DNA of 40,151 nucleotides from Crenothrix polyspora (GTDB lineage Bacteria > Pseudomonadota > Gammaproteobacteria > Methylococcales > Methylomonadaceae): NCBI GenBank assembly GCA_945877505.1, contig CAMDWT010000017.1, forward strand, positions 1 to 40,151, read 5' to 3'. The position numbers and the translations under genes were made by a program. Of the stretch, positions 4,499 to 29,652 are shown one piece after another; position 1 is the first letter of the stretch; every line of letters starts with the position of its first letter. The notes under the pieces were generated by a model. The model ran no database searches. It saw only the letters and a list, made by a program, of their open reading frames with translations, and had not been told where the DNA came from.

Positions 4499-5600
4499 TC
4501 TCTAAACCCACTACCTTTAACTTAAGATGCCTACGGCTTTTATCTTCTACTTGTCCAACCAATTGCCCACAAGCAGCATCAATGTCTTCGCCGCGCGTTT
4601 TTCTGATTGTTGTTACAATTCCCGCATCATTTAATAGCACTTTAAAACGATTCATTACTTCCTTACTAGAACACTTATAGGCATTATTAGGGAACGGATT
4701 AAAGGGTATTAAGTTGATTTTTGCTGGAACGGTCTTTAATAATTTGATTAGTCCACGGGCATCATCCATAGAATCATTAATGCCATCAAGCATCACATAT
4801 TCAAAGGTTACTGTGCGTCTCGGAGCAATTTTTGCATTATCTTTGCAGGCTTCCATTAACTCCTTTAATGGATATTTTTTATTAATAGGAACGAGTTCGT
4901 TCCTTAGTTCATCTGTAACCGCATGCAATGAAACAGCAAGACTCACATCACAAACTTGTGTTAATCGATACATAGCCGGCACAACGCCGGAGGTACTAAT
5001 AGTTACTCTACGCTTGGAAAGTCCAAAGGTAAAATCATCCATCATTAAATTCATGGCCGCAACCACGTTATCAAAATTAAGCAAGGGTTCACCCATACCC
5101 ATCATGACAACATTTGTAATCTTTTTTGTTGTACCTAAACGCTTTTGCGCAACAATAACTTGACCAATAATTTCTGCGGTCGTGAGGTTTCGATTAAAGC
5201 CCTGTTGAGCAGTAGAGCAAAAGGTGCACGCTAAGGCACAGCCTATTTGCGATGATACGCATAAAGTTCCACGTCCCTCTTCAGGGATAAAAACCGTTTC
5301 GATTCGGTTACCGCAACTAGTTTGCAAAGCCCACTTACAAGTGCCATCACTAGCAATTTGCTCAACTACAATTTCAGGCGTTGCCAAATAACAATTTTCA
5401 TTTAGGTAAGCTCGCAATGACTTACTTAAATTTGTCATAAGATCGAAATCTTCAACACCTTCCTGATAAATCCACTTAAGTAATTGGGTGGCTCGGAAAG
5501 GTTTTTCACCTAAATCGACAAAAAAGGTCGCAAGACCTTTTCTGTCATAATCAAGCAGATTGAATTTTTTTAACTTAGCGAGTTCTTGCACAGATTTCAT
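4488..5600 (-). CDS. rlmN: Dual-specificity 23S rRNA/tRNA m2A methyltransferase RlmN
   Basis: RlmN is a radical SAM enzyme that methylates C2 of A2503 in 23S rRNA and A37 of some tRNAs. The 370-residue protein has the iron-sulfur cluster cysteines Cys121, Cys125 and Cys128 (CALACTFC), the GEPLLN motif, and the C-terminal DIDAACGQL cysteine that carries the methyl intermediate. The only plausible start is ATG at 5600, which lies inside ndk and gives a 26-base overlap; this is a notably long overlap for two housekeeping genes. It is followed by pilF with an 11-base overlap. Confidence 0.96.
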
Positions 5601-6006
5601 TGTCTGAGAAAAAGAAAGCGATCTCTCTTTTTGCAGTTTCTAAAGCATCTGATCCATGTACTGCATTTTCATCAATACTGGCAGCAAAATCTGCACGAAT
5701 AGTGCCTGCAGCTGCTTCTTTTGGATTAGTCGCGCCCATTATTTCGCGATGTTTAAGAACCGCATTTTCGCCCTCTAATACTTGCATGATCACAGGACCT
5801 GAAACCATAAATGAAATCAAATCTTTGAAAAATCCGCGTTCACTATGCTCTGCATAAAAACCTTCAGCCTGAGCTTGTGTTAAGTGCAACATTTTTGCCG
5901 CAACAATTTTTAAATCATTTTTTTCAAAACGACTATAAATTTCACCGATAACATTTTTTGCGACAGCATCAGGTTTAATAATTGAGAAAGTGCGTTCTAT
6001 TGCCAT
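5575..6006 (-). CDS. ndk: Nucleoside diphosphate kinase
   Basis: Ndk transfers the gamma phosphate from NTPs to NDPs through a phosphohistidine and balances nucleotide pools. The protein is 143 residues, the same as in E. coli. The catalytic His117 is in NAVHGSD, preceded by [18 protein letters not shown]. It starts [15 protein letters not shown] with ATG at 6006 and a GGAG ribosome site 13 bases upstream. It heads the run ndk-rlmN-pilF-hisS-yfgM-bamB-der. A TATAAT -10 and an inverted repeat lie just upstream. Confidence 0.97.
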
Positions 6007-6053
6007 TATTTTTTAAAACTCCAAGTTAACATTAAATAAATTTTTAATTACTT

Positions 6054-6059
6054 ATTATA
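6054..6059 (-). promoter_or_regulatory. Likely -10 element of ndk
   Basis: On the minus strand a perfect TATAAT lies 48 bases before the ndk ATG. No good TTGACA-like -35 is present at 16-18 bases, so activation or a weak -35 is possible. Confidence 0.4.
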
Positions 6060-6090
6060 CTCGATCATCACACCATTGTAGATAATCGAG
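6060..6090. promoter_or_regulatory. Inverted repeat next to the ndk -10 (operator-like)
   Basis: CTCGATCATC at 6060-6069 and GATAATCGAG at 6081-6090 pair at nine of ten positions around an 11-base spacer. The repeat directly abuts the TATAAT on the upstream side and covers where the -35 would lie. It is not followed by a T-run in either direction, so it is not a typical terminator. Operator function is inference. Confidence 0.35.
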
Positions 6091-6101
6091 ACTTCGTACT
6101 T

Positions 6102-7028
6102 TTAAGGTCTTCGATCTATTTCTGCGCCTTCCTTAACAGGTATCATAAGATCTTCGGCACTAATCCCCAATAATAAAGCCATGGGGCTTGCAATAAAAAT
6201 AGATGAATACGTACCAAAAAACACACCAAACAACAGCACGATAGAAAAGTTATGAATAATTTCGCCACCCAGAAAAAACAGCGAAACTAATACTAAAATA
6301 ACTGTTAAAGACGTCATTATCGTTCGACTTAAGGTAACATTTACCGAAATATTCATTATTTCTTCGGTCGATTTATTTCTTAATAAACGGAAGTTTTCCC
6401 TGATACGGTCATACACCACAATCGTATCATTCAAAGAATAACCAATCAGCGCAAGTACAGCGGCCAATACCGTTAAATCAAACTCCAACCCTAAGATTGA
6501 AAACAATCCCAAGGTTACAATAACATCATGAATGGTTGCTATTACGGCTCCAGTTGAGAATTTCCATTCAAAACGCCACGCTATATAAATTAAAATACCT
6601 AATGTTGAGTACAATAATGCCAAAAAACCATCTTCGGCTAAATCATCACCCACCTGAGGCCCTACAAACTCAACACGTCGAACGCTAGCTGGCTCTGCCG
6701 TTGTTTTGTTAATGGCCTCTAACACCTTTGAACTTAAATCCGCGCTACTGACACCTTCATGCGGCTTTAAGCGAATTAATACGTCTTTTGCAGTACCGAA
6801 ATTCTGCACAGTGGCATCATCAAAACCTTGAGCATCTAACGTATTTCTCAGTACCGTTAAATCAGCAGCCTTTTGATAACCAACCTCAATTAAAGTACCA
6901 CCGGTAAAATCGATACCCATTTGCAATCCACGGACAGCAAGCGACCCCATCGAGATAATCATGAGCACACCAGAAAATATCAGTGCAATATTTCGATTAC
7001 CTATAAAATTTATATTTGTTGTCTTCAT
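6102..7028 (-). CDS. secF: Protein translocase subunit SecF
   Basis: SecF works with SecD in the inner membrane to drive late steps of Sec-dependent export with the proton motive force. The 308-residue protein has an N-terminal membrane segment, the DFTGGTLIEV motif of the first periplasmic domain, and five further membrane segments in the C-terminal half, including GYSLNDTIVVYDRIREN, a hallmark of SecF. It follows secD by 89 bases, in the order tgt-yajC-secD-secF. Length agrees with the family. Confidence 0.96.
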   Translation of the reverse strand: MKTTNINFIGNRNIALIFSGVLMIISMGSLAVRGLQMGIDFTGGTLIEVGYQKAADLTVLRNTLDAQGFDDATVQNFGTAKDVLIRLKPHEGVSSADLSSKVLEAINKTTAEPASVRRVEFVGPQVGDDLAEDGFLALLYSTLGILIYIAWRFEWKFSTGAVIATIHDVIVTLGLFSILGLEFDLTVLAAVLALIGYSLNDTIVVYDRIRENFRLLRNKSTEEIMNISVNVTLSRTIMTSLTVILVLVSLFFLGGEIIHNFSIVLLFGVFFGTYSSIFIASPMALLLGISAEDLMIPVKEGAEIDRRP

Positions 7029-7083
7029 ATTTTATTCTTCTAAAAGTAGGAACAAACCTTAGTATTTAACTTTTCCTCGAGCC

Positions 7084-7115
7084 TAGGGCAACCCAATGGG
7101 CAGCCCCTACAAAAA
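7084..7115 (-). repeat. REP-like GTAG palindrome between secD and secF
   Basis: Read on the minus strand the element begins TTTTTGTAGGGGCTGCCC. GGGC (7086-7089) pairs with GCCC (7103-7106) and CCC (7092-7094) with GGG (7098-7100), leaving a small internal loop and an AAT apex. The leading TTGTAGGGG matches the elements at 3703 and 18312. Its position between cotranscribed genes could also affect mRNA stability. Confidence 0.4.
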
Positions 7116-7117
7116 TC

Positions 7118-8965
7118 TTAAACAGATAATTTTTCGACTCTACGGTTACCGTATACCCAGTTAATAACCATGCGTGTTCCGGTTATTGCCGTAAACATGG
7201 ATGACAAAATCCCGATAATCAGTGTTACCGCAAAACCTTTAACTGAACCGGTACCAAAAGCAAACAATACGACCGCAACAACTAAATTGGTAAAATGTGA
7301 ATCAAGAATAGTTGCAAACGCTTTGTCATAACCAATAAAAATAGCCGCTTGAGGTGTGACACCATTTTTAAGCTCTTCTTTGATACGCTCAAAAATTAAC
7401 ACGTTAGCATCAACAGACATGCCCACGGTTAAAATAATACCGGCAATACCAGGCAAGGTTAACGTTGCCTGCAACATAGACAAAATTGCCACAACAATAA
7501 CCACGTTAAAGGCTAATGCAAAGTTTGCAATCATACCGAACAAGCGATAATAAACCGCCATAAACAACACAACCAAAGCAAAACCGACTACGAACGATAA
7601 CATTCCTTTATCAATATTGTCTTGACCAAGACTGGGTCCAACTGTACGTTCTTCAACAATATCTACCGGAGCAGCCAATGCGCCAGCCCTCAATAATAGC
7701 GACAAATTACGTGCTTCCTGCGGACTATCCAATCCAGTCGTTTGAAAACGTTTACTAAATACACCTTGAATGGTTGCAACGTTTATAACTTTTTCAACCT
7801 TCTCTTTATGGCGTATTTTTTGACCATTAACTGTTTTTGTTTCTACTTTATATTCAATAAAGACGACTGCCATCGGCTTTCCAACACTTACTTGTGTCGT
7901 TTTCGCCATTTTGGCGGCACCCACGCCATTTAATGAAATATTAACCGAAGGTCTACCGTCCTGATCTTGTCCAGAAGAAGAATCAACAATTTGATCGCCT
8001 GTCACAATAACGCGCCTATCCAATAAAATAGGGTTGCCACTTCTTTCATAATACAAGCGACTGCCGACGGGTACATGGCCCGTTATAGCTTGCTGAACAT
8101 CATGTTCAACATCAACTAATCGATACTCAAGCGTCGCGGTAGTTCCTAAAATCTCCTTAGCGCGCGTGGTGTCTTGTACACCAGGCAACTGAACCATGAT
8201 GCGATTATCACCCTGTTGCTGAATAACGGGTTCTGCAACCCCTAACTCATTCACTCGGTTACGTAACGTTGTCATGTTTTGTGCGACAGCAAATTTCTTA
8301 ATTTCGCGCACTTCTTTTTCAGAGACTTGCAACCAAACTTGATCCTGTGCTTCGGGTTCAGTAATTTCCAACGTACGGAAATCTTTATCTAAAAGCCCTA
8401 AAAGCACCGCCTTATCATCAGCAGATTTCAACGTAATTTTAATAAAGCCATTATCTTTAGAGACCGACTGATAACGCATTTTTGCGCTTCTTAATGCAAG
8501 CCTTAAATCATCGTTATAGCGTTCTTCAGCTTGTTTTACAGCGGCCTCCATATCCACTTCAAGCAAAAAATGGACCCCGCCCCGCAAATCAAGCCCCAAA
8601 TACATGGCTTGAGCACCTAAAGATCGCAACCACGCAGGCGTTGTAGGCGCCAAATTCAAAGCAACGGTATAGTTGCTACCCATACTATCTCTTAACAAGT
8701 CAGCCACTTTAAGCTGATCATCGGTATTATTAAAGCGTGCTAACACACGACCATCTTTAAACTCAAAAGCTTTGACCGGAACACCTACCGTTTTGATGGT
8801 ACCGTCAATCTGATTAGCCTGCTCTTGAGAAATAACAGCCGTTTGTGTCGAAGATATCTGAACTGACGGATCATCGCCGTATAAATTCGGCAATGAATAA
8901 ATGATTCCGACACCAAAAACAATCAGAATTAATAAATTTTTCCAAAGGGGGAAATGGTTTTGCAT
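7118..8965 (-). CDS. secD: Protein translocase subunit SecD
   Basis: SecD pairs with SecF to pull exported proteins into the periplasm using the proton gradient. The protein is 615 residues, as in E. coli. It has an N-terminal membrane segment (about residues 9-25), the LGLDLRGGVHFLLEVD signature, a large periplasmic region with two P1-type subdomains, and five C-terminal membrane segments containing GMSVDANVLIFERIKEE. It starts at ATG 8965, 73 bases after yajC. Nothing is missing or unusual. Confidence 0.97.
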   Translation of the reverse strand: MQNHFPLWKNLLILIVFGVGIIYSLPNLYGDDPSVQISSTQTAVISQEQANQIDGTIKTVGVPVKAFEFKDGRVLARFNNTDDQLKVADLLRDSMGSNYTVALNLAPTTPAWLRSLGAQAMYLGLDLRGGVHFLLEVDMEAAVKQAEERYNDDLRLALRSAKMRYQSVSKDNGFIKITLKSADDKAVLLGLLDKDFRTLEITEPEAQDQVWLQVSEKEVREIKKFAVAQNMTTLRNRVNELGVAEPVIQQQGDNRIMVQLPGVQDTTRAKEILGTTATLEYRLVDVEHDVQQAITGHVPVGSRLYYERSGNPILLDRRVIVTGDQIVDSSSGQDQDGRPSVNISLNGVGAAKMAKTTQVSVGKPMAVVFIEYKVETKTVNGQKIRHKEKVEKVINVATIQGVFSKRFQTTGLDSPQEARNLSLLLRAGALAAPVDIVEERTVGPSLGQDNIDKGMLSFVVGFALVVLFMAVYYRLFGMIANFALAFNVVIVVAILSMLQATLTLPGIAGIILTVGMSVDANVLIFERIKEELKNGVTPQAAIFIGYDKAFATILDSHFTNLVVAVVLFAFGTGSVKGFAVTLIIGILSSMFTAITGTRMVINWVYGNRRVEKLSV

Positions 8966-26340: not shown

Positions 26341-26631
26341 ATGGCTGAAACTGTAGATGAATTGACCGTTACCTATGAAGATGGTGGAGTAGAAACGGTT
26401 AAAGAATTAGATAAAAAAGTATTGACTAAAGGTGCATGGGCGACCGTTATGTATCGTTATCAAGATTGGAATCGTGCTAAAGAAGAATATGGTCCTGATA
26501 AATACACTATTCGTCGCTATCAAAAACGTAATGGTGAATATCAGCAAAAATCTAAATTCAATATCTCCAGTAAAGATCAGGCAAAAAGCATTATTGCTGC
26601 ACTGGAAGATTGGGTAAGTTTAGATGATTAA
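26341..26631 (+). CDS. Small conserved protein, possibly PC4-like
   Basis: I do not recognise a named function. The 96-residue cytosolic protein has an acidic N terminus, then KGAWATVMYRYQDW at 30-43 and YTIRRYQKRNGEYQQKSKF at 55-73, and ends with a helix AKSIIAALEDWV. The last two parts recall the C-terminal domain of transcriptional coactivator PC4 (a strand IREY, a glycine turn, basic residues, then a helix), which binds single-stranded DNA; this is a pattern-level suggestion only. Codon use and a coherent amino-acid pattern support a real gene. It stands alone between the YVTN and transporter genes. Confidence 0.7.
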   Translation: MAETVDELTVTYEDGGVETVKELDKKVLTKGAWATVMYRYQDWNRAKEEYGPDKYTIRRYQKRNGEYQQKSKFNISSKDQAKSIIAALEDWVSLDD

Positions 26632-26784: not shown

Positions 26785-28479
26785 ATGCAAGCACAGAGTG
26801 GATTTTTTATTCAATTCTTAAGGTTGGCCACCCCTTTTTGGAAATCCGAAAACAAGATCGTTATCCGTCAACAATCGTTGGCTCTTATTGTTCTTACTAT
26901 TTTTCAAATGATGCTTGCTGTCGTCATTACAACATGGAGTTCCGCACTATTTAATGCCCTTGAAGAACATTCCATGTCAGGTTTGTTTAAGCAAATCGGC
27001 TATTTGATTTTAATTTTTGCCGCCAGCATCGCTGTCACGGCTATGCATATAAAAGTTAAACGGGATTTACAAATTGGCTGGCGAGCTTGGTTAACAGATC
27101 GAGTGATTGGCAAATGGATGACCAACGGCCGTCATTATCTTGTTTCTCATATACAAACAGTAGAACATGACAATCCTGATGGCCGTATCGCAGAAGACAT
27201 CCGAATTTCCATCGATGAAGCGATCAATCTCTGCCACTCTTTATTTTATAGCTTACTGCTCATCATCAGTTTTACAAAAATTCTTTGGGAACTTTCAGGC
27301 ACTATAAAGCTTGATGTTGGACTACTTCATCTACCAATATATGGTTATTTAGTCTGGGCTGCCCTTATTTACTCTGTGCTAGCGTCGGTACTGGGTTGGT
27401 GGGCAGGACGTCCTTTAACGCTCACAACGCATGCAATGCAAACCGTTGAAGCCAACTTCCGCTTTGGCTTAGCAAAAGTACGAGAAAATTCTCAGGCTAT
27501 TGCTCTCATTCATGGCGAAATCAACGAACAAAAACGCTTCAGCCATTTTTTCCAAGACATCATCAATGTGTTTGATCGTCAAACCGTCGCTTGGACAAGC
27601 ATTCTTCTTTTCAATTCGGGCTATGGCGTTTTATCAATGGCCTTTCCTATTTTGATCGTTTCGCCACGCTATATTATCGGCAGCATTACGCTAGGCGCCT
27701 TGATGCAATCAGCACAGGCTTTTCAGCAAATGTCTGGCGCGCTGTCTTGGCCAGTCAACAATATGGCAGGAATTGCCCAATGGCGCGCATCTGTTGAACG
27801 GGTTTTGGACCTAGTCAAAGCGCTAGAAGATCTAGAGCTAGAAATAGCACGCCCAGATCCACAGCGCATTCTTCTAGAAAAGCCTTTGCAATCTACCTTA
27901 TGCTTTCATGATCTTTGTATCTCTCAGCTCGATGGAACGGTTATTATTTGTGGCTTGAATGCCGAAATAAGATTGGGAGAACGTGTATTAATTGCGGGTG
28001 ATGCTCTTACTGGAGCCAGACTATTCAAGGCTATTGCTGGCCTATGGCCATGGGGCCGAGGCCGCATTGAATTGCCTGACAGCGAGCCTATGTTCTTCAT
28101 GCCACCTCGACCCTATCTACCCGACGATACCTTACGAAATGCCATTTGCTATCCATCGTCTTCTGAAGTATTTTCAGGCATATCCATTGAAGATTTACTT
28201 AAACTAGCAGGACTGGAACACTTAATCAGCGATCTTGATCAAGAAAATACTTGGGACAATGTGTTAACTCGTGATCAAGAGCAACGTTTAGGATTAGTAC
28301 GCTTATTATTATATCGACCCAAATGGATCCTTCTGCAAGAAGCTTTTGACTCCCTTGATCCTGATGGAGAGGCTTTAATGCTACGAATAATCTGCCAACA
28401 ATTACCGGATGCTGCCATACTAACTATTAGCAATCAACCTACAGCAAAAGCATTTCATAATCGCATTATCAACTTATGA
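26785..28479 (+). CDS. SbmA/YddA-like transporter with a degenerate ATPase domain
   Basis: The 564-residue protein is an ABC half-transporter of the ABC_membrane_2 type (E. coli YddA, SbmA, BacA relatives), which import peptides, bleomycin or vitamin B12 across the inner membrane. The N-terminal half has about six membrane segments and the family string NPDGRIAEDIRISIDEAI. The C-terminal nucleotide-binding domain is recognisable (IAGLWPWGRGRIELP, RPYLPDDTLRNAICYP) but its catalytic motifs are changed: Walker A reads GDALTGAR (405-412) with no Lys, the Q-loop Gln is Pro441, the signature is LTRDQEQR (494-501), Walker B has Gln518 in place of Asp, and the H-loop His is Asn550. I start at ATG 26785 since GGAGAG lies eight bases upstream. 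GH5 follows after 30 bases. Confidence 0.85.
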   Translation: MQAQSGFFIQFLRLATPFWKSENKIVIRQQSLALIVLTIFQMMLAVVITTWSSALFNALEEHSMSGLFKQIGYLILIFAASIAVTAMHIKVKRDLQIGWRAWLTDRVIGKWMTNGRHYLVSHIQTVEHDNPDGRIAEDIRISIDEAINLCHSLFYSLLLIISFTKILWELSGTIKLDVGLLHLPIYGYLVWAALIYSVLASVLGWWAGRPLTLTTHAMQTVEANFRFGLAKVRENSQAIALIHGEINEQKRFSHFFQDIINVFDRQTVAWTSILLFNSGYGVLSMAFPILIVSPRYIIGSITLGALMQSAQAFQQMSGALSWPVNNMAGIAQWRASVERVLDLVKALEDLELEIARPDPQRILLEKPLQSTLCFHDLCISQLDGTVIICGLNAEIRLGERVLIAGDALTGARLFKAIAGLWPWGRGRIELPDSEPMFFMPPRPYLPDDTLRNAICYPSSSEVFSGISIEDLLKLAGLEHLISDLDQENTWDNVLTRDQEQRLGLVRLLLYRPKWILLQEAFDSLDPDGEALMLRIICQQLPDAAILTISNQPTAKAFHNRIINL

Positions 28480-28509: not shown

Positions 28510-29652
28510 ATGACAAAAAAATTGGACGCTAAATTTGGCAAGAAACTACGAGGTGTTAACTTAGGTGGCTGGCTCGTACTTGAAAAATGGATGACACCTA
28601 GTCTTTTTGAGGGACTTCAAGCAACCGATGAGACGTCCTATTGCGTTGAGCTTGGTAAGAGCGCTGAGGAACCTTTAAAAAATCATTGGAATACGTTTAT
28701 TACTTCCGAGGATTTTGCTTGGCTGGCTCAAACAGGCATCAATGCCGTTCGGATTCCGGTGGGGCATTGGATATTCGGCCCAGACTACCCCTATCATCCG
28801 GCTTATGGCACCGACACCCATCCCTTTGTTGAAGGTGGCATCGACATTCTTGATCGTGCCTTTGATTGGGCTGAGCGCTATGGTTTATCTGTTGTACTAG
28901 ATTTACATGCCGCTCCTGGCTGCCAGAATGGTTTTGATAATGGTGGGATACTGAATATTTGTGAATGGCACACAAAAGAAGAATACATTAATTATGCAGT
29001 GTTCCTATTGGAGAGATTGGCGAAACGTTACCATAACCGACCTTCTTTACATGCCATTGAGGTATTAAATGAACCTCGCTGGGATATTGACACTAGCCTG
29101 TTAAAAAAATATACCACAGATGCCTACCAACACATTCGAAACTACTGTCGCGCCGAAGACGTTGCCGTCATCTTTCATGATGGCTTTAGGCCATTTCGGG
29201 AATACAGTGATTTCTTATCGGAACCAACGTTTCATAATGTAATAATGGACATACATCGTTACCAGTGCTTTGTTCAGACTGATATTGACCTTGATATTTA
29301 TGGCCATATCCGTAATGCCGTTGTCGAATGGAAAAATGAAGCTGATGACATTATTGAAAACGGCCATTCAACTTATTTAGGGGAATGGAGCCTAGGCCTA
29401 CATTTAAAGTTTGTCGAACAATGGACTGAAGATCCCTCACAAAGGACTTTAGGTGTTATGGATAACTTCCAAAAATCACTCGCCTACCGAGCCTATGCTG
29501 CCGGACAATTGATGACCTTTGAAAAGTATTCAGGCTGGTTCTTCTGGAGTTATAAAACAGAATCCGCACCCGAATGGTGTTTTCGTGAATGTGTTAATCG
29601 AGGTTGGTTACCTGATAAGTTTGACAATGATAATATCGATATATTTTCGTAA
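28510..29652 (+). CDS. GH5 (exo-beta-1,3-glucanase-like) glycoside hydrolase, cytosolic
   Basis: The 380-residue protein matches the GH5 subfamily of fungal exo-beta-1,3-glucanases: RGVNLGGWLVLEKWMTPSLF (14-33), INAVRIPVGHW, LDLHAAPGCQNGFDNGG, the acid/base Glu188 in LNEPRW, and the nucleophile Glu292 in YLGEWS. Both catalytic Glu are present, so it should be active. No signal peptide or membrane segment is found, so the enzyme should be cytosolic. It has an AGGTG ribosome site at 28497-28501 and follows the SbmA-like gene by 30 bases, suggesting that the transporter brings in its substrate. The true substrate (beta-1,3-glucan oligosaccharide or a glucoside) cannot be told. Confidence 0.88.
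   Translation: MTKKLDAKFGKKLRGVNLGGWLVLEKWMTPSLFEGLQATDETSYCVELGKSAEEPLKNHWNTFITSEDFAWLAQTGINAVRIPVGHWIFGPDYPYHPAYGTDTHPFVEGGIDILDRAFDWAERYGLSVVLDLHAAPGCQNGFDNGGILNICEWHTKEEYINYAVFLLERLAKRYHNRPSLHAIEVLNEPRWDIDTSLLKKYTTDAYQHIRNYCRAEDVAVIFHDGFRPFREYSDFLSEPTFHNVIMDIHRYQCFVQTDIDLDIYGHIRNAVVEWKNEADDIIENGHSTYLGEWSLGLHLKFVEQWTEDPSQRTLGVMDNFQKSLAYRAYAAGQLMTFEKYSGWFFWSYKTESAPEWCFRECVNRGWLPDKFDNDNIDIFS

Follow-up and report, generated by a model that had tools for sequence, protein, structure and literature searches.

A YddA-type half-transporter of Crenothrix polyspora whose nucleotide-binding domain has lost its ATP-site motifs throughout a clade

Organization of the locus

The window, i.e. the whole stretch of 40,151 nucleotides analysed here, is contig 17 in the genome of a methane-consuming bacterium (2.46 Mb, 99.75% complete); its relatives with names are Methylobacter and further MAGs of the Methylococcales. 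It carries a gene for a half-transporter composed of a transmembrane domain (TMD) and a nucleotide-binding domain (NBD), followed by a glycosidase gene.

26785..28479, + strand: YddA/ABCD-type half-transporter with a dead NBD, 564 aa (570 aa from the alternative start ATG 26767)
26785..27819, + strand: TMD, about residues 1-345, from Pfam matches and alignment to SbmA and YddA
27877..28476, + strand: pseudo-NBD, about residues 365-564, from residue alignment to Rv1819c and plant ABCD1
28510..29652, + strand: GH5 exo-1,3-beta-glucanase-like gene (PF00150, E 1.6e-16; 8z2w, E 6.7e-61)

The reading frame of the transporter is intact, as the initial annotation had stated, and is open from ATG 26767 or ATG 26785 to a stop which ends at 28479. 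ATG 26785 is the likely start, since AGGAGAG, which resembles a ribosome-binding site, is situated immediately 5' of it and the frames of several orthologues (e.g. L003, L004 and L014-L017) start just one codon 5' of this methionine. In Pfam, the TMD matched ABC_membrane_2 (PF06472; 117 bits against a cut-off of 24.4, E 1.3e-33) and, more weakly, SbmA_BacA (PF05992; 69 bits, E 4.8e-19), over residues 38-272 and 38-341, respectively, in the numbering of the 570-aa form. No Pfam match to ABC_tran was found at E <= 1e-3. The top NCBIfam model was the peroxisomal fatty acyl transporter subfamily, for which the score of 131.5 bits is far below the cut-off of 918.9. A C-terminal NBD of ABC fold is present, and the alignment to the closest solved structure by sequence, Rv1819c (6tqe; E 9.5e-57, 196 bits), spans residues 69-567 and thus both TMD and NBD; ABCD proteins came next. 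ABCD1 and Rv1819c also ranked first (E about 1e-8) in a Foldseek search with an AlphaFold2 model of the NBD alone, which was used for fold only, as its mean pLDDT was 59.8 and most of the P-loop half (first 73 residues) was below 50. AlphaFold2 was also run on the full-length protein with 16 sequences; the resulting model, with a mean pLDDT of 48.4, served only for the listing of helices.

Loss of ATP-site motifs

In a scan of the order that covered 251 genomes, 167 had matches at E <= 1e-30. From the matches that were fetched, a part of those listed, 94 distinct full-length sequences with more than 50% identity to the window protein were read. They were compared with 56 intact relatives, one of which is E. 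coli YddA (L136), and which have Gln, Gly, Asp, Glu and His at the respective motif sites in 56/56 cases. The altered motifs are given below in the numbering of the 564-aa form.

27997..28020, + strand: degenerate Walker A GDALTGAR, residues 405-412, from alignment to homologues
28105..28107, + strand: P441 in place of the Q-loop Gln (Pro in 93/94 and Ser in 1/94 homologues; Gln in 56/56 intact relatives)
28264..28287, + strand: degenerate signature LTRDQEQR, residues 494-501 (Gly497 in 0/94 against 56/56 intact)
28324..28359, + strand: degenerate Walker B WILLQEAFDSLD, with Q518 in place of Asp and E519 kept (Asp518 in 0/94 against 56/56 intact)
28432..28434, + strand: N550 in place of the H-loop His (His in 12/94 against 56/56 intact)

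All five motif changes described in the initial annotation (Walker A, P441, LTRDQEQR, Q518 and N550) are present. Its wording that every catalytic motif has been lost goes slightly too far, as the catalytic Glu beside Walker B (E519) is kept in 87 of the 94 homologues and in 56/56 intact relatives, the D-loop-like SLD is retained in the window protein and a few homologues still have the H-loop His. Similarly, the Lys of Walker A is gone as described, yet not by mere substitution. The alignment shows a one-residue deletion at the Lys, and Arg/Lys stands where GKST has its second Ser/Thr; position 412 is K or R in 92/94 homologues.

Distribution of the loss and selection on the NBD

The Walker A pattern G....GK[ST] was found in none of the 94 homologues and in all 56 intact relatives. 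The Q-loop Gln, the signature Gly and the Walker B Asp were each absent in 94/94 homologues, in which position 518 is occupied by Gln (78) or Glu (16). One homologue (L115) possesses a stray GKS, yet its Walker A is ISGKSSTGAMLF and it was counted in the dead clade. A pattern search of the genome contigs gave 16 loci, in close relatives only. The nearest intact relative in the alignment is 35.4% identical to the window protein, another one read afterwards (L197) is 35.7% identical, and none of the 57 intact YddA-type relatives compared exceeds 36%. The initial annotation had taken close homologues with intact motifs as a sign of recent local loss; among the homologues read, no intact one lies above 36% identity, and all five changes are common to the clade as a whole (0/94 with GK[ST]).

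Median dN/dS (Nei-Gojobori, pairwise) was 0.093 for the NBD and 0.068 for the TMD over 82 pairs, which are non-independent and include a few distant ones. The NBD value is not about 1, and the NBD is under purifying selection. Together with the open frames and the clade-wide motif loss, it bears out the earlier view that this is not simple decay. NBD conservation was 0.495 in the dead clade and 0.502 in the intact relatives at 50-60% TMD identity, 0.639 against 0.762 at 70-80%, and 0.772 against 0.844 at 80-95%. The lower values of the dead NBD in the two higher bands indicate that some constraint has been relaxed, though constraint is strong. On sequence comparison, the loss of the ATP-site motifs is old and clade-wide, and it is neither chance nor local decay.

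Part-decayed and NBD-less relatives

Three relatives, from another order of the class (L138, L139) and another class of the phylum (L167), are 46-47% identical to the window protein. All of them have a dead Walker A and a retained Q-loop Gln, while at Walker B they have E, D and Q and in the H-loop Y, F and H, respectively. Azospirillum plasmid records at 45-47% identity numbered 12 among the matches listed, and the four read have a dead Walker A, Glu in the Q-loop, Glu-Asp at Walker B and His or Ser in the H-loop. Seven homologues (L056, L076-L079, L080 and L143) possess no NBD, and no NBD remnants were found adjoining these seven genes. The gene of L056 sits in tandem ahead of a full copy. 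Six genomes with NBD-less homologues each hold one full-length dead copy too, and genome G396, also with an NBD-less homologue, yielded no match to such an NBD at E <= 1e-8.

A phylogenetic tree was constructed from the TMD columns of 81 rows, Azospirillum left out, by the quick mode of IQ-TREE. The dead, intermediate and NBD-less rows formed one group (SH-aLRT 99), and the clade lies among YddA-type proteins. The NBD-less state requires three changes, forced by starred branches, although long rows, which occur here, make the stars of a quick tree less trustworthy, and parsimony counts alone cannot separate gain from loss. By this tree, the NBD is dropped altogether on three branches. As the search started from a full-length dead protein, it could have overlooked NBD-less forms belonging to intact lineages. 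The initial annotation had suggested that the protein may be an intermediate, a proton-driven transporter with a dead ATPase retained as a structural or sensing part. The graded series around it, from intact through part-decayed and dead to absent NBD, supports the term as an evolutionary series but not a proton route of SbmA type.

FastTree with 175 rows gave the same dead-clade group and also the same second group of YddA-type proteins with a dead NBD (deadB), which comprises 14 distinct sequences (L034-L039 and L041-L048) in the order-level family f4. In this group, the Q-loop Gln is changed to Glu in 14/14 and the catalytic Glu to Arg in 12/14, and Walker A is without GK[ST]. It is separate from the main dead clade on the tree, with L040 as its nearest intact relative, and genome G057 carries five copies. 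Near the NBD-less gene of L076, about 380 bp 3' of it, an IS21-like istA/istB pair was recognized by eye (5451-7800). The NBD-less gene of L076-L079, all from one genus, has a conserved neighbourhood of genes which, judged by eye, we take to resemble stress-related ones; next in the neighbourhoods of L077 and L078 is presumably a catalase-like gene, also by eye.

Residues of the TMD and comparison with SbmA

The following TMD positions were compared between the clade and its relatives.

27046..27063, + strand: H88...K92 R93, invariant in the dead clade, from residue counts in the alignment
27193..27237, + strand: E137, D/E144 and H151, ionizable and seven apart in TM3, from residue counts in the alignment
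27493..27495, + strand: Q237, at the place of the EAA-like loop acid (ABCD1 E291), from alignment

H88, K92 and R93 were each present in 94/94 members of the clade, 3/3 other intermediates, 4/4 Azospirillum proteins and 7/7 NBD-less homologues, and His at position 88 was found in 0/56 intact relatives. The dead clade has E137 in 94/94, D/E144 in 94/94 and H151 in 93/94, while the intact relatives are acidic at 137 in 53/56 and at 144 in 25/56 and have His at 151 in 1/56. H151 is kept in three of the four Azospirillum proteins (Leu in the other) and in three of the seven NBD-less ones (Tyr in the other four). Being seven apart in one predicted helix, E137, D/E144 and H151 may lie on a shared face. 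Position 237 is acidic in 56/56 intact relatives, 2/94 members of the clade, 2/3 other intermediates and 0/7 NBD-less homologues. It was matched to E291 of ABCD1 through the EAA-like motif, the motif and its role being described in PMC5536080 and PMC9683791. The side chain of E291 is reported to enter the NBD of the opposite protomer, and a change of E291 together with R518 lowered lipid transport and hardly affected ATPase activity (PMC9683791).

In SbmA, a ladder of six Glu residues (E193, E203, E269, E276, E287 and E378) is known, and the window protein matches two of them. The equivalents of E193 and E276 are Glu, while those of E203, E269, E287 and E378 are I, T, R and Q. The two kept residues are found in 94/94 homologues, and Glu occurs at the E378 position in 32/94. 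At the two kept positions, Glu is the commonest residue in the intact relatives too (43 and 47 of 56). YddA has three of the six in the alignment used, whereas PMC13316013 describes only the equivalents of E203 and E287 as missing from YddA, so column 269 is uncertain. By alignment only, the window protein has no TM0-like N-terminal extension, and the loop segments shortened in SbmA are retained.

The glutamate-ladder reading was therefore not borne out, with two of six Glu, both common in intact relatives. A kinship or mechanism specifically of SbmA type, as put forward in the initial annotation, is not supported by the stronger match to ABC_membrane_2 (117 against 69 bits), by Rv1819c as best solved structure or by the ladder. 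Ionizable residues of its own are invariant in the clade, and ion coupling could take another route through them.

The adjoining glycosidase gene

The GH5 gene starts 31 bp 3' of the transporter gene, and the two are likely in the same operon. The closest solved relatives of its product are exo-1,3-beta-glucanases, 8z2w being a glucan 1,3-beta-glucosidase. The NEP and GEW motifs are retained, and no signal peptide was seen by eye. A GH5 gene lies 3' of the transporter gene, on the same strand and within 700 bp, in 69/94 loci; no GH5 gene is so placed in 23, and two flanks were too short. Among 101 family genomes, 53 have GH5 and 51 of these also have a PF06472 protein (compared by eye), the exceptions being G127 and G176. 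The homologue in G127 (C1:1319523-1320446) matched from query residue 67, contains one internal stop and might be a remnant left when the transporter was lost. Among the GH5 matches, a stop was flagged in 18 of the 53 in the genomes (counted by eye) and found in 6 of 90 in the loci, where five have it at query residue 372-374, beyond the gene end; the L095 match, a short piece, has its stop at residue 27.

In Azospirillum, a GH1 beta-glucosidase gene is situated just upstream of the transporter gene in three of four loci (L203, L205 and L206), and the A. brasilense locus (L204) has no adjoining glycosidase. In G773 a GH1 beta-glucosidase gene is tail-to-tail with the transporter gene, while in G493, G378 and G396 no glycosidase adjoins the gene among the ORFs scanned. 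The NBD-less paralogues L076-L080 occur away from GH5 in the flanks examined. By this neighbourhood argument, the adjoining GH5 and GH1 genes suggest a beta-glucoside as substrate.

On the other side of the transporter gene, at 26341-26631 of the window, there is an ORF of 96 aa with no Pfam or NCBIfam match. Across four related loci (L052, L053, L055 and L063) its identity is 91-100%, far above that of its neighbours.

Proposed function and alternative explanations

Judging from the motifs, the transporter almost certainly hydrolyses no ATP, and it is highly probable that it has a selected function without ATP hydrolysis. The explanation that we favour, with reserve, is a non-ATP-driven beta-glucoside importer with a conserved non-catalytic pseudo-NBD, the energy source and the substrate being what we infer. 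By analogy with YddA/ABCD-type half-transporters, it would pair as a homodimer. The TMD would undergo alternating access with no ATP hydrolysed, transport being powered by an ion gradient or proceeding downhill, and the pseudo-NBD may act as a dimer brace or regulatory base. The gene neighbourhood suggests that a beta-glucoside, beta-gluco-oligosaccharide or glucosylated molecule would be imported and then be cleaved in the cytoplasm by the adjoining glycosidase, which is of GH5 type in the window and of GH1 type in several relatives. Chances are even that transport is ion-coupled and not purely facilitative, and slightly under even that the substrate is a glycoside. Loss of the coupling acid at 237 in 92/94 homologues counts for this importer, while the kept E519 and K/R412, which could still allow nucleotide binding, the partly relaxed NBD constraint, the loci with no adjoining GH5 and the variable H151 count against it.

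It is unlikely that the deviant site still binds or uses nucleotide by means of the P-loop Lys/Arg shifted by one and the kept Glu. Such a site would agree with K/R412 (92/94), with E519 (87/94) and with the strong purifying selection on the NBD. It is difficult to reconcile with the joint loss of Q-loop Gln, Walker B Asp and signature Gly in 94/94, with the loss of the acid at 237 and with the seven homologues which miss the whole NBD.

About as unlikely is a proton symporter of SbmA type, whose TMD would use the glutamate ladder with the dead NBD as a passenger. The weak PF05992 match and the Glu equivalents of E193 and E276 in 94/94, with Glu at the E378 place in 32/94 (Gln in the window), favour it. 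The window protein, however, has I, T and R at E203, E269 and E287, and SbmA is reported to be inactive or severely impaired on losing conserved ladder Glu residues (PMC13316013). The kept Glu residues are commonest in the intact ATP-driven relatives as well, the TM0 extension is absent and the loops shortened in SbmA are kept.

The tight GH5 linkage (69/94 loci) might hint that the protein is no longer a transporter but a channel, a scramblase or a membrane scaffold for the GH5 enzyme. We consider this improbable, as the TMD is conserved more strongly than the NBD (median dN/dS 0.068), the substrate-path helices and loops align to YddA throughout and the NBD-less paralogues L076-L080 are away from any GH5 in the flanks examined.

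A heterodimer with an intact partner half, of the kind known from ABC exporters in which one site is degenerate, is very improbable. One-sided degenerate sites are common among known heterodimers (PMC7756269), G773 holds both the dead L167 and the intact L197, and G250 has the intact L196. The genome of the window, at its 99.75% completeness, holds exactly one PF06472 protein and thus no intact partner of this family. A PF06472 match occurs in 76 of 121 family genomes, 60 of the 76 have exactly one (counted by eye), and 58 of these 60 appear among the relatives matched in the scan of the order. A pseudogene or relaxed decay, which the somewhat relaxed NBD in the higher identity bands might favour, has a negligible chance against open frames and a median NBD dN/dS of 0.093 over 82 pairs.

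Tentatively, and with the odds somewhat against it, this widespread clade can be considered a second, separate route from ABC to secondary transporter, in which the NBD would have died first, been kept structurally and later been dropped from certain lineages, with a new ionizable set (E137, D/E144, H151 and H88/K92/R93), unlike the SbmA ladder, in place of ATP coupling and with uptake of beta-glucosides for a partner glycosidase. The clade may show how an ATP-driven pump turns ATP-independent. A 2026 paper derives SbmA from NBD loss in a YddA-like ABC transporter, in part as what it calls speculation (PMC13316013). The supposed steps coexist in living bacteria, as intact, part-decayed, dead and absent NBDs with accompanying TMD changes, and the route from ATP drive to ATP independence can be tested directly in organisms that can be grown, e.g. 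Azospirillum. Annotation is also affected, as the Azospirillum records carry the label 'ABC transporter ATP-binding protein/permease' though Walker A is gone in the four read.

Comparison with known systems

No description of the clade was found in the literature among the open-licence papers covered. ATP hydrolysis is stated to be essential for BclA in PMC12003926, which also reports the distribution of SbmA and BclA; neither 'degenerat' nor 'NBD' was found in its text by term search. YddA/BclA proteins (E. coli P31826 type) share with the window protein the TMD family, the TMD-NBD order, the loops and a length of about 560-600 aa. All the ATP-site motifs are present in YddA and in the remaining intact relatives that were read, whereas the dead clade lost them and has H88, K92, R93 and H151. 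Rv1819c (6tqe) is the best solved match over TMD and NBD, but its NBD is intact.

SbmA/BacA (SLiPT) proteins have a distantly related TMD, and ATP hydrolysis is expected in neither. SbmA, proposed to descend from a YddA-like ancestor with the NBD lost (PMC13316013), has no NBD, an extra TM0, shortened coupling loops and a ladder of six Glu, while the window protein has a pseudo-NBD and two of the six. TAP, CydDC and TM287/288 likewise lose catalytic residues in an NBD. Exporters of this type retain one working site via the partner subunit (PMC7756269), whereas both sites of the window homodimer would be dead. LmrA-MD, from which the NBD was cut off, is an example of an ABC TMD working without NBD, and ethidium-proton symport has been reported for this membrane domain alone (PMC6155054); it is, however, a laboratory truncation in another ABC family.
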